This document shows, piece after piece, positions 26,811-51,044 of a stretch of 64,000 nt of DNA. The position numbers and the translations under genes were made by a program. The notes beneath the pieces were generated by a model, which ran no database searches, was not told the origin of the DNA, and was given only the letters and a program-made list of their open reading frames with translations. Positions within the stretch are counted from its first letter, which is position 1. Every line of letters begins with the position of its first letter. The stretch covers positions 4,713,501-4,777,500 of the forward strand of contig CM067526.1 in the NCBI GenBank assembly GCA_034509925.1, read 5' to 3'. Origin of the DNA: Hirudinaria manillensis (taxonomy: Eukaryota > Annelida > Clitellata > Hirudinida > Hirudinidae).

Positions 26811-26938
26811 GGAACCAGAGCAGAGCATTGGCAGTCAGTAACAAAAATTGCTTCTTGCGATTTCTTGTTACATTCGAGGTGAGTTTTTCTTCGAATTCTT
26901 TTATTTTCAAATAAATTATTCTTTTTTTTTATTTGCAG

Positions 26939-29900
26939 ATGGAGAGACATCCGTTGTTGCTGCTCCTGCTGTCGGCGTTCGTGGCTTCCAGTTTGGCCAT
27001 CAATGATGTTCCGGCACCCAACTCGTACGTTGGAAGTGTGTCTAATGATGTATGAGGTGATAGTCTTAAATGTTGTCTTGACATTTTCCAGGTCCTACGT
27101 CGTCGTCACAAGCGACGTCCTCGTACCTGGCTCTGAACTTCTGATTGACTTGAACTTGCTCAACGTCGTCCTATCTGGTCCCAAGGAAGGAACAGAAAAA
27201 GACGAAAAGTCACCGGAATGCGTCCTTGAACTCAGCGTCACAGTTGGCGACCTCGTATGGCATCGTTCCGCTTGGGAAATCCAACCTGAAAAAACTCCGA
27301 AAAGTGATTCGTTGATTTTACTTTCATTTTCACATGACGTTGTCTCACGAAATAACGTTCGAATATCTTTGCAGGTTTTTCCAAAACGCTGAAAGTCATG
27401 GTTTGTAAATTTTATTCTATTTGTTATTTTCCATGAGATCTTCATTAAGTTTTTTTTTAAATTTTGTGAGCAGGTGCCATCTGACGAGAACGTGTGGGGA
27501 GACAAATCAGTTCTGAAGGTCGAATCGGGTTCTTGCTTCACGTTCTCCCATTCCGTCCAACTTCCAACTGGAAGGAAGGAGTTGCTGGTCTCCCTGCGCA
27601 CTGACAAACTGAAGTACCACCCAGGAGACCTCGGTAGGTTTTGTTAATTATAATAATAATTATTATAATTACCAACAAATAATTTTATATTTATTTCAGT
27701 CATGGTCGAGGCTCTCGTTCACACCCAAGAACTGAAACCGTACCTGAAGCCTGTCAACCTCTCGATTCACGTGAGATTAAAATAGCGTAATTATTCGCAG
27801 GAATTAAATTATTTACAATTATTTTTATTTTTATTTCTCAGGACTCGAACAACGTGCCACTCGTCCAATGGCTGAACGTCACCGCCGAAGAAGGTCGGGT
27901 CTTGATTTTAATGCACACGTTGACGTGTACATTTTGTTGAGATTATTTATTATTTACGTTTAATTTAATTTTTATTTCTGATTCTCAGGTCTGCTCAGAT
28001 ACGAGTTCCTCGTCCCACTTCTTGCTCAGTCAGACGAATGGGTCCTCGTCTTGGAAAGTCACGTGAGAACAAACATTTGCTATATTTAATGATATTTTAA
28101 TATCATGATATCTAATAGATTCAATTCTAGTAAAGTGATTAACGTTTTATCGTTTTAGGATCAATTGGTCAACCACACCATCGAAGTTGAACAACCCGTT
28201 GGACCTTATGGTTGGAAACTATTTAGTTTAGATGCACTTTTAACCTAGGATACGATAGATTAATTTCATTAAACCTGTTGCAAATATTTTCAGACGAGGA
28301 ATGCTTCCTGGTTGAAGTGAGATCTCCGAGGTACCACACTCTCCACTCGACCGATGAAAAGAAAAGTCACAGCTTGGATGTCACTGTAGCAGCGGGGTGA
28401 TTGGTCTTTAATGTCTTCTAATGACAATGTAAGAATTTATTATTAATTAATAATATTACTTTTGTCTAATTATTCAGCCACCGCTCTGGACTCCCGATGA
28501 AAGGAAAAGTTGAACTGCAACTTTCACTCGAGAAGAACTCAAAGTCGGGTTCACTGCCTCCGGTCGAGGTGGGATCTCTGCGGTTGTTTCTTGTGCTTCT
28601 CTTTCTTTGTCTCACGGTTATTTTTATTTCAACAGCTCGAAGCCGGTTACAAAGAGTTTTCACTGAAACCCGATGAAATCAAACAAATTTTGGGCATGAA
28701 GACCGAGGAACATCTGGCTGGACACGAGGTCAAGGTCACGTTCAAGGTGGAAAAGACGCGTCCTTCGCGCGAAGAAATCGGTCGCGGCGATGGAGAGAAG
28801 GAGGAAAAAATGAAGGAAGGAAGCGAAAGGAAATCAGACGTCGTTGTTCATGTCACCAAAGAGGTCCACGTGACCTTTGTCGATCAGTCTCATGTCCTCT
28901 TCTTCAGCGAATTCACTCCTGTCTTCTTCAAGCCTGGACTGTCTTACGTGGGCCAGGTCAGACGACGGATGATTCATTTCAAACAATTACATCCAACTGT
29001 ATTATTTATTAATAATTAATTAATTAATTAATATTATTCTTCTTAACAGGTCTTGTTGAAACAAGTTGAGGAAGTACTTCCACACAGTTCTGAGGAGAAA
29101 GAGGTCACCGTCAAGGTCAAGCAGTTCAGTTCAGCATCGGATCCCAAGGAAGAGAAACTCACTCTGAAACTGAAACCGAACTCTCTCGGCGAATTTTCAT
29201 TCGAGGTTCCCAAAGAAGTCAACAAATTGGAACTTGAGGTAATTATTTTCAATTTGAATCCATAATTAAATAATTTTAAATAATTTAAATACATTTTTCC
29301 ATTACCTTTTAGGCTCTCTTTGAGGACAAGGAATCTGGCAAAGTTGTCACGGCTAGTTTGGGAGAAGTTCTGCCGTTCTCGACGAAAAACAAAGATGGAC
29401 ACTTCCTCCAAGTCCTGGTAGATGAGAAGCCACCAAAAGTTGTTGTGAGTTTGAAATTCGAACCGATTATAAAATTAATCGGAAAATTATTTGCTTGGAT
29501 TAAATATTTGAATTTTTTAATGCAGATCGGTGAAACACTAAAGTTCAAGGTCGAAACAACGTTTCCCACGGAAGTTTTCCTCTACCAAGTCTTCTGCGAT
29601 CCAGGATTGGTTCTCTCGGGTAGATGGGTGGCTCCATCTCCGGCACTGAAGCACGATCTCTCCGTGGTTCTTCCGCACAACGTCAGCCATCTTCTGTCAA
29701 CTCCTAGACTCGTGGTGGAAGTGCTCAGTCCAAGCAATGAAGTTCTTTCTGAAAGTTTCCGATTTGTTGTCGAACAAGAAAAGGAAAGCCCGGTAAGGAG
29801 GACTTGGTTTTACTAATTATTGTGATTCTTTCGTTCATTCTTTTGACACCAATTTTCAATTCTTCGCAGTTGGAACTCTTCGTACGACCAGAGGTGGCTG

Positions 29901-34826: not shown

Positions 34827-34830
34827 ATAG

Positions 34831-35130
34831 TGTAATAACCCGGGGTCCTCAAACTAATTATAGAAGGGCAGGTTTATTGAAAGTTGTCAGATGGCTTGGA
34901 AGATGTAAAATGCTTAATTGATTAAGTCTTGAAATCTGCTGTTTCTATTACTCTCGCTCTGCTTTCCGAGATAAATCCATTTGTCGAGGTACACAACCAA
35001 AGAGTCTGAATAGCAATTAATTATTTAATTATAAAATTATATTGCCGCTAAATTTAATTAATTACTAAATTAATTAATCAGCAATATAATTTCAATTAAT
35101 CTTCAATTATCTGGATCCAGGGATCCAACA
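34831..35130 (-). repeat. 3' LTR of the retroelement
   Basis: 300 bp, the downstream LTR in the minus-strand sense of the element. It is identical to the other LTR except for a 2-bp net indel around 34946-34952. Confidence 0.95.
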
Positions 35131-36228
35131 CTGCCCCCTCCTTAAATCTGTTCGTCCCGAACAGACATCTATTCCCATTTTCATTTTTACTCTCGGAATA
35201 GGATCCGATTGTCTTCCAACAATCTCATGGCTGCGAATCCCAGATCCATTTTCTTTGCCATCTTCTGGAATTTCTGTTGCCTCCCTTCTGCTTCTGTGTC
35301 CCGCAAGTTTCAGCCGCGGAACATCGCCATTTCCATGCTCAACCTCCTGCTCCACCATGCCGCCAGATCTCAGACTCTCTACAGGATCACCCGCTCCATT
35401 TTCCTTGCTAGGCACTCTCCCGAAATCCCGAGCACTCCCTTCTGTTATCTCCAATGGAGCCGAAACATCCGCTGGTAAATCCATGGGCTGTTCTGTAGAC
35501 TCTACTTGTTCCACCATCAAATCCGTGCGCTCCACCGGCAACTCCACGTGACTCATCACTAACTCCTCGGGCTGCACCAACAACTCCACATGATCCACCG
35601 GCAATCCCACAGGCTCCTCCGAAAGTTCCACTTGCTCCACTAAAACCTCCGTGAGCTCTCTGGGCCCTGCTGACGACTCGACCTGATCTGGTAACTCTAT
35701 GGGCTCCAACGGCGAGTCCTCTGAGTCCGCCATCACGCACAGCACTTCTGGAGACACGCATGCACTGCGGTCGGATGTGTCTTCGAATGACTCCATCCCA
35801 ATGCTGCCAGAAACTGTACCTGGAACAACGGACATGATTTGTTCTTCGTTGGTAACCTTTTTGCAGAGTTCCTCTCCTTGTTCCTCGCGAGATGGAAGCA
35901 CCACTTTGCCCTCCTCAAAAGAACCAACAGGACTCTTCTCGGTAGAGTTTCCACCCGAAATCAGAGAGACATCCTGACACGGAACCGCTGTGTTTTTCAA
36001 ATCACCCCTAATACTCCTAATACACTCCCTCAAATCCTCTGTTAACTCTCTCAAGAACTTACAATATTCGGACTCGAATTCGTATTCCTCCGGGTCATGG
36101 CCATTCTCTGTCAGCCATGCCCCAAGTCGCTCTCGTATCTCAGCTTTCGTGCCTTTGCAGTCCAGGCCACGATCTCTCAATTCTTGTCTCAATCGAGGCA
36201 CGTACAATTCATCCAAGTACTTCGGCAT
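35107..36228 (-). CDS. SAP-domain protein of the LTR element (possible Gag-like ORF)
   Basis: A 373-residue single-exon ORF whose ATG (36228) is 82 bp inside the 5' LTR. Residues 5-40 (LYVPRLRQELRDRGLDCKG, then AEIRERLGAWL) fit a SAP helix-extended-helix domain, a DNA/chromatin-binding fold seen at the N terminus of some retroelement Gag proteins. Residues about 190-260 contain a degenerate acidic repeat of the form E(L/Q)-PV-(E/D)-VEL. There is no CCHC zinc knuckle, no capsid signature and no DTG protease motif. The reading frame runs through the polypurine tract and stops inside the 3' LTR. The frame is intact, so the element looks recently active in trans. Function is inferred from the SAP fold and position only. 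Confidence 0.8.
   Translation of the reverse strand: MPKYLDELYVPRLRQELRDRGLDCKGTKAEIRERLGAWLTENGHDPEEYEFESEYCKFLRELTEDLRECIRSIRGDLKNTAVPCQDVSLISGGNSTEKSPVGSFEEGKVVLPSREEQGEELCKKVTNEEQIMSVVPGTVSGSIGMESFEDTSDRSACVSPEVLCVMADSEDSPLEPIELPDQVESSAGPRELTEVLVEQVELSEEPVGLPVDHVELLVQPEELVMSHVELPVERTDLMVEQVESTEQPMDLPADVSAPLEITEGSARDFGRVPSKENGAGDPVESLRSGGMVEQEVEHGNGDVPRLKLAGHRSRREATEIPEDGKENGSGIRSHEIVGRQSDPIPRVKMKMGIDVCSGRTDLRRGQCWIPGSR
35134..35143 (-). other. Polypurine tract
   Basis: AAGGAGGGGG on the minus strand, three bases from the 3' LTR boundary: the expected plus-strand primer site of an LTR element. It lies within the end of the ORF. Confidence 0.85.
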
Positions 36229-36290
36229 CCTTCACTTTTCAACTAAACAAGCTTCTACCTTAGTTACTTTTGGACACCCTTTAACTCTAA

Positions 36291-36308
36291 ATCCAACTCC
36301 TGACACCA
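36291..36308 (-). other. tRNA primer-binding site
   Basis: TGGTGTCAGGAGTTGGAT on the minus strand, one base after the 5' LTR. It is complementary to a tRNA 3' end finishing ...TGACACCA, which resembles tRNA-Leu. Confidence 0.8.
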
Positions 36309-36309
36309 A

Positions 36310-36607
36310 TGTAATAACCCGGGGTCCTCAAACTAATTATAGAAGGGCAGGTTTATTGAAAGTTGTCAGATGGCTTGGAAGATGTAAAATGCTTAATTGA
36401 TTAAGTCTTGAAATCTGCTGTTTCTAATTCTCGCTCTGCTTTCCGAGATAAATCCATTTGTCGAGGTACACAACCAAAGAGTCTGAATAGCAATTAATTA
36501 TTTAATTATAAAATTATATTGCCGCTAAATTTAATTAATTACTAAATTAATTAATCAGCAATATAATTTCAATTAATCTTCAATTATCTGGATCCAGGGA
36601 TCCAACA
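36310..36607 (-). repeat. 5' LTR of the retroelement
   Basis: 298 bp, TG...CA termini, upstream LTR in the element's own sense. Confidence 0.95.
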
Positions 36608-36611
36608 ATAG

Positions 36612-37305: not shown

Positions 37306-37432
37306 GGAACCAGAGCAGAGCATTGGCAGTCAGTAACAAAAATTGCTTCTTGCGATTTCTTGTTACATTCGAGGTGAGTTTTTCTTCGAATTCTTTTATT
37401 TTCAAATAAATTATTCTTTTTTTTATTTGCAG

Positions 37433-40400
37433 ATGGAGAGACATCCGTTGTTGCTGCTACTGTTGTCGGCGTTCGTGGCTTCCAGTTTGGCCATCAATAA
37501 TGTTCCGGCACCCAACTCGTACGTTGGAAGTGTGTGAAATGCTGTATGAGGTGATAGTCTTAAATGTTGTCTTGACATTTTCCAGGTCCTACGTCGTCGT
37601 CACAAGCGACGTCCTCGTACCTGGCTCTGAACTTCTGATTGACTTGAACCTGCTCAACGTCGTCCTATCTGGTCCCAAGGAAGGAACAGAAAAAGACGAG
37701 AAATCTCCGGAATGCGTCCTTGAACTCAGCGTCTCAGTTGGCGACCTCGTATGGCATCGTTCCGCTTGGGAAATCCAACCTGAACAAACTCCGAAAAGTG
37801 ATTCGTTGATTTTACTTTCATTTTCACTTCACACTGTCTCACGAAATAACGTTTATAATAATCTTTGCAGGTTTTTCCAAAACGCTGAAAGTCATGGTTT
37901 GTAAATTTTATTCTATTTCTTATTTCCCATGAGATCTTCAATAAGTTTTTTTTTAAATTTTGTGAGCAGGTGCCATCTGACGAGAACGTGTGGGGAGACA
38001 AATCAGTTCTGAAGGTCGAATCGGGTTCTTGCTTCACGTTCTCCCATTCCGTCCAACTTCCAACTGGAAGGAAGGAGTTGCTGGTCTCCCTGCGCACTGA
38101 CAAACTGAAGTACCACCCAGGAGACCTCGGTAGGTTCTGTTAATTATTATAATTATTAATATAATTATTAACGAATAATTTTATATTTATTTCAGTCATG
38201 GTCGAGGCTCTCGTTCACACCCAAGAACTGAAACCGTACCTGAAGCCTGTCAACCTCTCGATTCACGTGAGATTAAAATAGCGTAATTATTCGCAGGAAT
38301 TAAATTATTTACAATTATTTTTATTTTTATTTCTCAGGACTCGAACAACGTGCCACTCGTCCAATGGCTGAACGTCACCGCCGAAGAAGGTCGGGTCTTG
38401 ATTTTAATGCACACGTTGACGTGTAAATTTTGTTGAGATTATTTATTATTTACGTTTAATTTAATTTTTATTTCTAATTCTCAGGTCTGCTCAGATACGA
38501 GTTCCTCGTCCCACTTCTTGCTCAGTCAGACGAATGGGTCCTCGTCTTGGAAAGTCACGTGAGAACAAACATTTGCTATATTTAATGATATTTTATATTA
38601 ATATCATTATGTCTAAGAGATTCAGTCGAATAAAGTTATTAATGTTTTATCGTTTTAGGATCAATTGGTCAACCACACTATCGAAGTTGAACAACCCGTT
38701 GGACCTTATGGTTGGAAACTATTTAGTTTAGATGCACTTTTAACCTAGGATACGATAGATTCATTTCATATAACTTAGTTGCAAATATTTTCAGACGAGG
38801 AATGCTTCCTGGTTGAAGTGAGATCTCCGAGGTACCACACTCTCCACTCGACCGATGAAAAGAAAAGTCACAGCTTGGATATCACTGTGGCAGCGGGGTG
38901 ATTGACCTTTAATGTCTTCTAATGACAGTAAGAATTTATTATTAATTAATAATATTACATTTGTCTAATTATTCAGCCACCGCTCTGGACTCCCGATGAA
39001 AGGAAAAGTTGAACTGCAACTTTCACTCGAGAAGAACTCAAAGTCGGGTTCACTGCCTCCGGTCGAGGTGGAATCTCTGCGGTAGTTTCCTGTGCTTCTC
39101 CTTCGTTGTCTCACGGTTATTTTTATTTCAACAGCTCGAAGCCGGTTACAAAGAGTTTTCACTGAAACCCGATGAAATCAAACAAATTTTGGGCATGAAG
39201 ACCGAGGAACATCTGGCTGGACACGAGGTCAAGGTCACGTTCAAGGTGGAAAAGACGCGTCCATCGCGCGAAGAAATCGGTCGCGGCGATGGAGAGAAGG
39301 AGGAAAAAATGAAGGAAGGAAGCGAAAGGAAATCAGACGTCGTTGTTCCTGTCACCAAAGAGGTCCTCGTGACCTTTGTCGATCAGTCTCATGTCCTCTT
39401 CTTCAGCGAATTCACTCCTGTCTTCTTCAAGCCTGGACTGTCTTACGTGGGCCAGGTCAGACGACGGATGATTCATTTCAAACAAATTACATCCAACTGT
39501 ATTATTTATTAATAATTAATTAATTAATTAATTAATAATATTCTTCTTAACAGGTCTTGTTGAAACAAGTTGAGGAAGTACTTCCACACAGTTCTGAGGA
39601 GAAAGAGGTCACCGTCAAGGTCAAGCAGTTCAGTTCAGCATCGGATCCCAAGGAAGAGAAACTCACTCTGAAACTGAAACCGAACTCTCTCGGCGAATTT
39701 TCATTCGAGGTTCCCAAAGAAGTCAACAAATTGGAACTTGAGGTAATTATTTTCAATTTGAATCCATAATTAAATAATTTTAAATAATTTAAATATATTT
39801 TTCCATTACCTCTTAGGCTCTCTTTGAGGACAAGGAATCTGGCAAAGTTGTCACGGCTAGTTTGGGAGAAGTTCTGCCGTTCTCGACGAAAAACAAAGAT
39901 GGACACTTCCTCCAAGTCCTGGTAGATGAGAAGCCACCAACAGTTGTTGTGAGTTTGAAATTCGAACCGATTATAAAATTAATCGGAAAATTATTTGCTT
40001 GGATTAAATATTTGATTATTTTAATGCAGATCGGTGAAACACTAAAGTTCAAAGTCGAAACAACGTTTCCCACGGAAGTTTTCCTCTACCAAGTCTTCTG
40101 CGATCCAGGATTGGTTCTCTCGGGTAGATTGGTGGCTCCATCTCCGGCACTGAAGCACGATCTCTCCGTGGTTCTCCCGCACAACGTCAGCCATCTTCTG
40201 TCAACTCCTAGACTCGTGGTGGAAGTGCTCAGTCCAAGCAATGAAGTTCTTTCTGAAAGTTTCCGATTTGTTGTCGAACAAGAAAAGGAAAGCCCGGTAA
40301 GGAGGACTTGGTTTTACTAATTATTGTTATTCTTTTGACACCAATTTTCAATTCTTCGCAGTTGGAACTCTTCGTACGACCAGAGGTGGCTGAACCAGGA

Positions 40401-48423: not shown

Positions 48424-48539
48424 TCAGGCAGACTCGAGTTGACGTTTGAATTCATCTTCGTCCATTCTGTTACGAAGAGAGCTGCTGTTGTTGTTGATGT
48501 TGTTGTTTTTGCTGTTACTGTTGTTGTTGGTGTTGTTAG

Positions 48540-48571
<32 letters not shown>

Positions 48572-51044
48572 ATGATGATGCTATTGCCGTCTCCCACCTC
48601 AGTGTAGTTGCAAAGAACCTCACCGATGTAACCGGACGATGGCGATGATGAGGACGACGACGAGGACGATATCCTGCTGCGATGTTCCTGTTGGTTGCTG
48701 GAAAACATGACGGAGGAGGATGAGGAAGACGAGGGAGGCGATGCTTGAAGAGTCGAGGAAGTCCAACATTCCATGATTTCCTCTTCCTGGAGCCGCTTGG
48801 ATTTGGCTCTCCTGTTTTGAAACCATATTTTCACCTGGACGTTTGAAATTCAAACAGTTCTTAAATATATTATAATAAATAAATGTATTATTAGCTAAAT
48901 TATTGTCTAACATGGTCTTAATTGGGAGCGTGAATGGTTCGAGAAATGACGAATATTAATCAAAATATCTCGAATTTCGAACAAATTATCAATAATTTAA
49001 TCGAGAAAAAGTTCGGTTTCTGATTAAAAAAGTTTAATGAAATGATTATTGTTGATATTTTAGTAAAATATTTAATGAAGGATTGGTTGTACTTCCAATT
49101 GTTGATGATGGTGTACACTGTACATTGTAAACTGTACACTGTACATGCATTGTACAAGGTTTAATCAAATTAGTTTAAAAATGGTTAAAAATTTAACTTT
49201 TCCTCAGTTGTTTCCAAAGAATTTTCTGCTGAAAAACTTGGAAAATTTGTTTCAGCAAATAAAAAAAATTAATTATTAAAGAATTTATTGAAATATATTC
49301 AGTTTCACTTTTGAACTTTTATCCATTTTTTGTTGGACTGCAATCGATTTTAAAAATAATTAATATTTTTATTTGATAATAATAATAGTATTTATTAATA
49401 TTATGTATTATTTCTGTTTATTAATAATTATGTAATTTAAAAATCATGGCAGGAATAAAAAATTAAATTGAGATTAACGCAATAATAAAGTTATGAAATA
49501 ATAATAATATTATTATTAGTAAATATTATGATTAATGTTATTTTTTCATATAAACATACCAAACACGACACTAAATGTTCCTCAAATGAATACCTAAAGA
49601 CAATCACATGAATTTATCCTATAATTTGATTTATTTATATTATTTACATTAATATGTTTATAATAACGTGATTTAATAAATAAATAAATAAATAAATGAG
49701 ACTCCATTCCAGACAAACATTCCCTCAACTAACCTGGTTCTCATCTAGTCCCAGCGACAAGGCAAATTGAATTCTTTCGGCCGCATTCAAGTACTGCCTC
49801 TTCTTGTACTTGCACTCCAACATTATCAACTGCTCCACCGAGTACGAGGTCCTTGGCTTTCTGTTGGGTCGATGACGTCTGAGGAGATGCCTCTGCTGAA
49901 GGTCAAAGTTCACTTTGGGATTAGGACGGGCTTCCGGATGAGTATAGGCTGGGGAGGTTTTGGGTTGTTGTTGGGAGTTCGTGAAGCTCAGAGGGGAAGT
50001 TAAATGGTCGTTGTGTTGTCCAATCGCGTTCGTCCATTTGTTCGGTGGTACGAGTCGGTTCTCTTGAAACATTGCACCGTGGCCAGATTCGAGGAATGCA
50101 TTTGGTGGCCTTTGGAGGGAAGGTGGATGGAAGGAAGGAAATGGAGGAGACCAGTGAATCGTTCTCGGGTGGTCCTCACCTTCCATAGTGGAGAACAAGT
50201 TTATGATTGGATGGAAGAAACGAGGAGGAGAGATTTTTATTGGAACGGGGATGACCACGTGATGCTGCTCCAAACCTACAACGTCTTCAATAAACATCCG
50301 GATATTAATATTAATGATGGTCAAATAGTTAACATTATTAATCATTTAAACTCTTAATTACACTTATTTATTTTATTATTATTTATTTTGAATTTTATAA
50401 AAATTTGTGAAAATTTCAAATCACGATAATAAGATAATAACACTGAATTTATTAATAAATAAATTAATTAAACAATCATTAATTCACCATTAATTGTTTG
50501 AATAAACGTCAATAACACGTAATTATAAATACAGAAGCTCCTTCGACCAATTAGAGGAAGGGTAACTTTGGCTTCGTCCTGATTGGGTGCAGTTTTGAGG
50601 TTCATTAATAATAACGTTTTGAATTGACAGGTGAATTGATATTTGCATGAATTATGAATTGCTAATGACCTTCACAAGGACTATTGAGGATCGTGAAATG
50701 ATATTTGATGTCATCACGAAGGAGATACTGATGATGATGATGATGACTACGGCTTAGAATAAACAAATATATTTGTAGTAATAGAGAAATAATTAATAAA
50801 GGTATTTAACATCATTAACATTAGCTATCGTTTACTGTTATCATTATCCTCCTCATCATCGTTATCATCATCACAATCATCATCAAATAATTGAAATAAA
50901 CTCACTCTGTCTCTTCGGTACTTCTGCCAATATGTTGCTGATCGAATACGACAAATGACCTGGTGACGACGACGACGACGATGGGGTGCAATCCATGACG
51001 TCATCCCTGGTAAGCCCAGGTGGGGTGATGTTTTCCCTGTGCAT
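48424..51044 (-). CDS. MSX: Msx-class homeobox transcription factor
   Basis: Exons on the minus strand: 51044-50906, 50275-49734, 48834-48424, giving 363 residues in phase. Exon 1 encodes an N terminus with an EH1-type Groucho-binding motif (YSISNILA), normal for NK/Msx repressors. Exon 2 ends in the first part of the homeodomain, starting NRKPRTSYSVEQL and containing QYLNAAERIQFALSL. Exon 3 continues VKIWFQNRRAKSKRLQEEE. The NRKPRT start, AER..F..SL core and RAK.KRLQE end are Msx hallmarks; an Msxlx-type relative is the main alternative because several core positions are diverged. The C-terminal half is Ser and Asn low complexity. The homeodomain intron sits at the same Q/V position as in the Vax gene. 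A start inside exon 2 alone was rejected because the EH1 exon joins it in phase. Confidence 0.82.
49112..49146. repeat. Duplicated TGTACACTGTACAT palindromic element
   Basis: Two identical 14-mers (49112-49125 and 49133-49146) separated by TGTAAAC, followed by another TGTACA at about 49150. Each has internal dyad symmetry. They lie in Msx intron 2. Confidence 0.8.

Follow-up and report, generated by a model that had tools for sequence, protein, structure and literature searches.

The mobility of non-autonomous LTR elements, and the retention of a gene by some of them, is still an open question. The TR-GAG elements of plants, whose name stands for terminal-repeat retrotransposons with GAG domain, are defined by a single ORF encoding a Gag with a capsid and/or a zinc knuckle. 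Outside the LTR retrotransposons, HeT-A of Drosophila, a telomeric non-LTR element whose only product is a full Gag, uses the reverse transcriptase (RT) of another element.

According to passages of the paper that describes it, a TR-GAG of Arabidopsis codes for a GAG of 562 aa, is able to transpose and resembles an autonomous element; its authors state there that it was previously unsettled whether TR-GAGs are mobile or merely act as a source of GAG (PMC8704663). PbTRIM of ants, as far as excerpts of its description go, is a family of young copies of 480-781 bp devoid of coding capacity, with a primer binding site (PBS) for tRNA-Leu and a 4-bp target-site duplication that is most often ATAT, and for which the authors identified no autonomous partner (PMC3532108). 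For CM-gag of the mosquito Culex pipiens, a title in the reference list of PMC3286476 gives gag as the only gene.

The element considered here is an LTR element with a SAP domain as its only recognizable domain. It spans 34827..36611 of the window, i.e. the whole stretch of 64,000 nucleotides that was analysed (Hirudinaria manillensis, contig CM067526.1, positions 4,713,501 to 4,777,500), and its sense strand is the minus strand. It is probably a satellite LTR retrotransposon of long standing that was active recently and is copied in trans, and its single gene corresponds to the N-terminal module of a Gag without its capsid. A parasite and its likely helper would thus be found in one genome, with defined common signals and one selected protein that differs, which makes the above question testable.

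Structure of the element and of its protein

All the cis signals that the sequence-only reading had recognized are present, and they are those expected of an LTR retrotransposon (pair of TG...CA LTRs, PBS, polypurine tract and short target-site duplication). On the minus strand, LTR comparison delimits a 5' LTR of 298 bp (TGTTGGATCC...GGGTTATTACA, 36310..36607) and a 3' LTR of 300 bp (34831..35130) that are one substitution and one indel apart, and the 4-bp duplication ATAG flanks them at 36608..36611 on the 5' side and 34827..34830 on the 3' side. The PBS, TTGGTGTCAGGAGTTGGA (36292..36309), abuts the 5' LTR and pairs with the 3' end of tRNA-Leu(CAG) at all positions but one. The polypurine tract (PPT), AAGGAGGGGGCAG (35131..35143), abuts the 3' LTR, and directly 5' of it lies a perfect 7-bp inverted repeat, CTGTTCG-GGA-CGAACAG (35148..35164). 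A second tRNA-like site that matches the PBS variant of the window copy was not scored as a tRNA. The matches of one tRNA-Leu end include 75 with a spacing of about 585 bp at C1:5586096-5629426 of the genome (G000, loci L074-L078); the stretch scanned (L074) carries four tRNA-Leu(CAG) and, on the opposite strand, three tRNA-Thr(AGT), an unusual tandem array.

The single ORF (35107..36228, 373 aa plus stop) ends 24 nt, stop codon counted, into the 3' LTR. Pfam agrees with the description of an intact frame with an N-terminal SAP domain and no retroviral domain: SAP (PF02037, residues 7-35, 36124..36210, E 4.3e-8) is the sole family above its cut-off (33.0 bits against 23.9), and no capsid, zinc knuckle, protease, RT, RNase H or integrase was detected in the ORF by this search. 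The best sequence matches in the PDB are also SAP domains (E 0.0009, 0.005 and 0.07), and three further matches look like chance. In the AlphaFold model, helices extend to residue 79, and confidence is low for nearly everything beyond; a fold search with the whole model, which is poor past that residue, gave no match at E 0.001 or better. Residues 80-343 (35200..35991) are predicted to be disordered (pLDDT below 50) and bear a net charge of -37 in the window copy; the part that starts at residue 80 and stops at the C-terminal motif has a net charge of -29 to -39 in all nine copies counted. By its sequence, the encoded protein is related to the N-terminus of the helper Gag and consists of a SAP domain, a short helix and a long, acidic tail predicted to be disordered. 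Two copies, L072 and L069, have the short-helix region expanded in frame by units of about 52 aa, giving ORFs of 538 and 438 aa.

Around the element, two similar ORF blocks (26883-29816 and 37410-40320 of the window) look like a host gene that was duplicated locally, and Pfam found no family in the one ORF tested from them. Homeodomain exons lie further on, on the minus strand (48424-48849 and 49725-50345).

Copies in the genome and selection on the ORF

A DNA search of the 148-Mb genome with the 1785-bp element gave 1250 candidates, of which the best 40 were scored. Thirty-six of these 40, window copy included, span nearly the full query at 88-100% identity. Junctions between LTR end and PBS of the SAP-only type number 352 at one mismatch or fewer, versus 128 of the helper type described below, the two patterns differing by two bases so that a few sites may be counted twice; at three mismatches or fewer there are 505 sites, helper sites included, and none for a reversed control pattern. 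Among 149 copies, the frame reaches at least 336 aa in 119 and is shorter in 26, four being set aside, and several frame-length groups occur among the hundreds of copies. The proposal of a compact non-autonomous family with a mostly intact ORF is thus upheld, and the two outcomes that would have undermined it, a lone internal deletion with no other 1.8-kb copies and an ORF broken in all other copies, are both contradicted by these counts. In the stretch fetched for one SAP-only copy, L020, the start of a SAP region of the helper type lies about 2.4 kb downstream.

Nearly identical LTR pairs and intact target-site duplications show that the family transposed in recent times. Indeed, 30 of 50 LTR pairs, among which are two mixed pairs from tandem copies, show no substitution at all (mean divergence 0.7%), and 45 of the 50 copies have a perfect 4-bp duplication, mostly ATAT-like.

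Young copies would appear intact whatever the ORF does. Fifty-two copies were fetched, 40 by DNA similarity and 12 picked for diversity and open frames; 45 passed a filter (frame of at least 340 aa and standard start), yielding 40 distinct aligned sequences for codon-position counts. Because of the 12 picked copies, the stop test and a repeated gap count were restricted to 39 of the 40 copies that DNA similarity had brought up. In these, the frame has been maintained. Whereas 9.1 stops would be expected on internal branches under neutrality, no stop is shared among these 39 copies, and the five broken ones are each broken at a different residue. Gap runs in multiples of three make up 11 of 16 in the ORF versus 3 of 22 in the LTR (Fisher p 0.0008; the first count, which included the 12 picked copies, gave 22 of 33 and 4 of 20), while among the gap runs common to at least two of the 39 copies, 4 of 10 are not multiples of three.

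The SAP part of the ORF is kept by protein-level selection. Within the family (16 chosen copies), omega is 0.42 for residues 1-53 (2dlnL 7.6), the bracketed value in IQ-TREE being taken as setting omega in the fixed-omega run. Furthermore, between SAP-only and helper SAP regions (four chosen satellite copies by two helpers, 52 codons, one helper codon omitted), pS is 0.78-0.86, i.e. saturated, and pN only 0.22-0.25 in all eight comparisons. Because amino acids have been kept while synonymous sites were saturated, the SAP region is conserved as a protein and is not a passenger; the same saturation implies that satellite and helper split long ago. Tested across copies as the sequence-only reading had proposed, purifying selection is found for the SAP part; for the rest selection is weak: in the same 16 copies, omega is 0.80 for residues 85-350 (2dlnL 3.9) and 0.83 for residues 1-350 (2dlnL 3.5). 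Variable sites in residues 1-350 of the 40 aligned copies fall almost without bias on the three codon positions (131/123/139), which means weak constraint over most of the ORF. For the residues after 350, simple counting gives a pN/pS of 2.3, on very few changes.

A candidate helper and the signals in common

The sequence-only reading had proposed looking for a Ty3-type relative that is autonomous and has a SAP domain in its Gag, and such elements exist in the same genome. Sites that match the core of the hairpin-PPT block, TTCGGGACGAACAGATTTAAGG, number 503 in the genome at two mismatches or fewer (reversed control, 0). On contigs C1 and C2, 27 RT matches were listed, 150 of 1478 candidates having been scored, so that a closer helper than those retained may exist; 16 of the 27 lie exactly 2033 bases from a core and 19 within 2029-2034 bases. 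A first helper candidate, an open frame of 1779 residues, was dropped because it spans a run of N.

Two of these loci, L060 and L061, hold Ty3/gypsy elements whose LTRs measure 221-225 bp, start with TGTTGGATCC and end with CGGGTTACAACA; in L061 both LTRs are intact and flanked by an ATAT duplication, and the exact 3' LTR end of L060 was looked for at its locus and not located. Their gag-pol ORF is about 1650 residues long and starts with MGPKILDDLRVPDLRRELRNRGLDATGLKAELQGRLEEWLLENNHDPSEYEF in L061. Tested in four pieces, L061 encodes a SAP domain, a coiled-coil-like match, a zinc knuckle (CCHC), a protease, RT, RNase H, H2C2, an integrase core and a p58 C-terminus, together with a marginal capsid match (PNMA, E 0.054); the order protease, RT, RNase H and integrase with H2C2 and rve is that of Ty3/gypsy. 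Their PBS is that of the window copy but for one base and fits the 3' end of tRNA-Leu(CAG) exactly. The satellite is therefore non-autonomous in the usual sense, since it carries no pol gene and an element with matching cis signals in its genome does.

The two types of junction are followed by different sequences. Among exact matches on C1 and C2, SAP-type junctions are followed by the PPT block 0.9-2.0 kb further on in 47 of 60 cases (in the remaining 13 none is found at the expected distance) and by a listed RT in none of the 60, versus a PPT block at 4.5-5.6 kb in 18 and a listed RT in 17 of 26 helper-type junctions.

The likeness between satellite and helper is confined to discrete blocks. 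With L061, these are the LTR end and PBS (39 bp, 92%), the SAP coding region (69%) and a 47-bp block that holds hairpin and PPT (96%); no alignment is obtained for the leader that separates PBS and ATG. With L060, the LTR end, leader and SAP region form one gapped DNA alignment (68.6%), and the hairpin-PPT block is 98% identical. LTRs of both types have identical first bases and similar last bases, but neither the LTR bodies nor the middle of the ORF match those of L060 or L061, so that the expected sharing of the LTR stands for its ends only. At the protein level, alignments of 11 satellite copies to the helper Gag stop at residue 51 in eight cases and reach residues 77-101 in three, and none of the 11 has a significant match past residue 101.

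The 47-bp block includes the end of pol (TAA) in the helper, while the short ORF crosses it in another frame and continues into the LTR. Being kept in two different frames, it is conserved at the level of the nucleic acid, so that the short ORF need not have a functional C-terminus. The inverted repeat that it contains is likewise kept in satellite and helper despite the different reading frames; the motif is reminiscent of plant Ty3 elements, and no paper with its core was located in literature text. The run of the ORF across the PPT, described earlier as an unusual economy, is real, but it may be a by-product of nucleic-acid conservation, the more so as the ORFs of L066 and L067 terminate ahead of the block. 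Against this, homologues in other protein records use the same frame across it.

A search of 5.8 billion proteins with the window ORF returned ten such homologues, of 387-468 aa, all with a SAP match and a C-terminal RVKMK...CSGRTDLRRGQC and with a middle region that is weakly like that of the window ORF. A profile search returned 17, i.e. seven more, of which the five read belong to the same families, two of them without the SAP part. Two SAP-only subtypes can be seen (P0002, P0007 and P0012 versus P0001 and P0004), with and without a long coiled-coil repeat after the SAP domain. Between P0001 and a helper-type Gag fragment, P0011, identity is 98% in the SAP domain and 78% across 184 aa that take in the coiled coil; the SAP domains of both are 53-57% identical to those of the window element and of the leech helpers, which are themselves 62-64% identical to each other. 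In these protein records, the SAP module thus tracks helper-type Gags, by exchange or recent derivation, P0001 and P0011 being possibly from different species. Among the papers returned by full-text searches for the SAP domain with retrotransposon terms, none deals with the subject by title and beginning of abstract, and an N-terminal SAP domain in a Ty3-type Gag may be undescribed so far.

Proposed mobilization in trans and comparison with described elements

Under the explanation favoured here, the satellite RNA would be reverse-transcribed and integrated by the enzymes of autonomous Ty3/gypsy elements of the same genome, which would recognize the common LTR ends, the tRNA-Leu PBS and the hairpin-PPT block. 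The SAP/helix module would join the helper Gag or the helper pre-integration complex and favour its own RNA or cDNA, either while particles assemble or later, on entry into the nucleus and contact with chromatin; this role of the protein is plausible, at a little under an even chance. Chromatin targeting, already suggested for the SAP domain, is a guess. More tentatively, such satellites could form a class that occurs in several animal genomes and whose sole gene would encode a Gag N-terminal protein without capsid, matched to the helper (SAP with a helix or coiled coil, and a disordered tail), that captures helper particles or steers their cDNA to chromatin. The match of the module to its helper may itself be under selection, as the module seems to have been renewed from helper-type Gags in other records (98% over SAP).

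The same protein could conversely be an interfering factor, a Gag N-terminus without capsid that poisons or dilutes helper assembly and thereby limits helper copies or super-mobilization. Truncated Gag products behave in this way in some yeast elements, the ORF retains the N-terminal module only, and the likeness of P0001 to P0011 could permit co-assembly. This is nevertheless unlikely: a satellite that relies on its helper would harm itself by strong inhibition, and in this genome most alignments to the helper Gag (8 of 11) go no further than residue 51.

It is less likely still that the target of the SAP protein is the host or its own promoter, with the protein regulating LTR transcription by binding DNA in the nucleus, for instance, rather than helper particles. 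The PDB SAP domains that it matches best belong to proteins known as nuclear or transcription-related, and its acidic tail resembles an activation domain, in composition only. However, the same domain forms the N-terminus of the helper Gag, which suggests a role in the particle or pre-integration complex, and the acidity of the tail is weaker in all five proteins counted from other records.

That the SAP region is kept as an RNA signal, for packaging or dimerization, the frame being a passenger or a shield against RNA decay, is improbable. Many non-autonomous elements do keep a 5' stretch of gag, constraint is weak over most of the ORF, and the alignment with L060 runs continuously from the LTR end into the SAP region; yet its synonymous sites are saturated relative to the helper while amino acids are kept, omega is low within the family, and the leader cannot be aligned with that of L061. 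Finally, an ordinary internal-deletion copy of the helper would account for the common PBS, PPT block and SAP domain, but is already contradicted, and almost certainly wrong, given the unlike LTR body and ORF middle, the hundreds of copies in several frame-length groups, the old split implied by synonymous saturation and the kindred ORFs in other records.

As a probable satellite copied in trans, the leech element works like a TR-GAG insofar as it has LTRs and a gene derived from gag but lacks pol. Contrary to the first proposal, it is no Gag-only element of the TR-GAG kind, since it encodes the SAP module alone, without detectable capsid or zinc knuckle (SAP is its only Pfam domain, and nothing matches the helper Gag beyond residue 101). 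Compared with plant TR-GAGs, which share LTRs and one gag-derived ORF, it keeps only the SAP N-terminus of Gag, has an LTR body of its own and resides in an animal. HeT-A is similarly Gag-only and borrows its RT, but it is non-LTR and telomeric and has a full Gag. The helpers L060 and L061 have the same LTR ends, PBS, hairpin-PPT, SAP N-terminus and type of target-site duplication, and differ by their shorter LTRs, their full gag-pol ORF and a pol stop inside the hairpin-PPT block. At 1.8 kb and with a maintained ORF, the window element is not a TRIM, these being very short and non-coding. Nevertheless, it resembles PbTRIM, by the features given in the excerpted description and not by sequence, in its tRNA-Leu PBS, ATAT-type 4-bp duplications and young copies, and differs from it by its size, its ORF and its likely partner; on these features, a Ty3 element with a SAP-bearing Gag is a candidate partner for PbTRIM.
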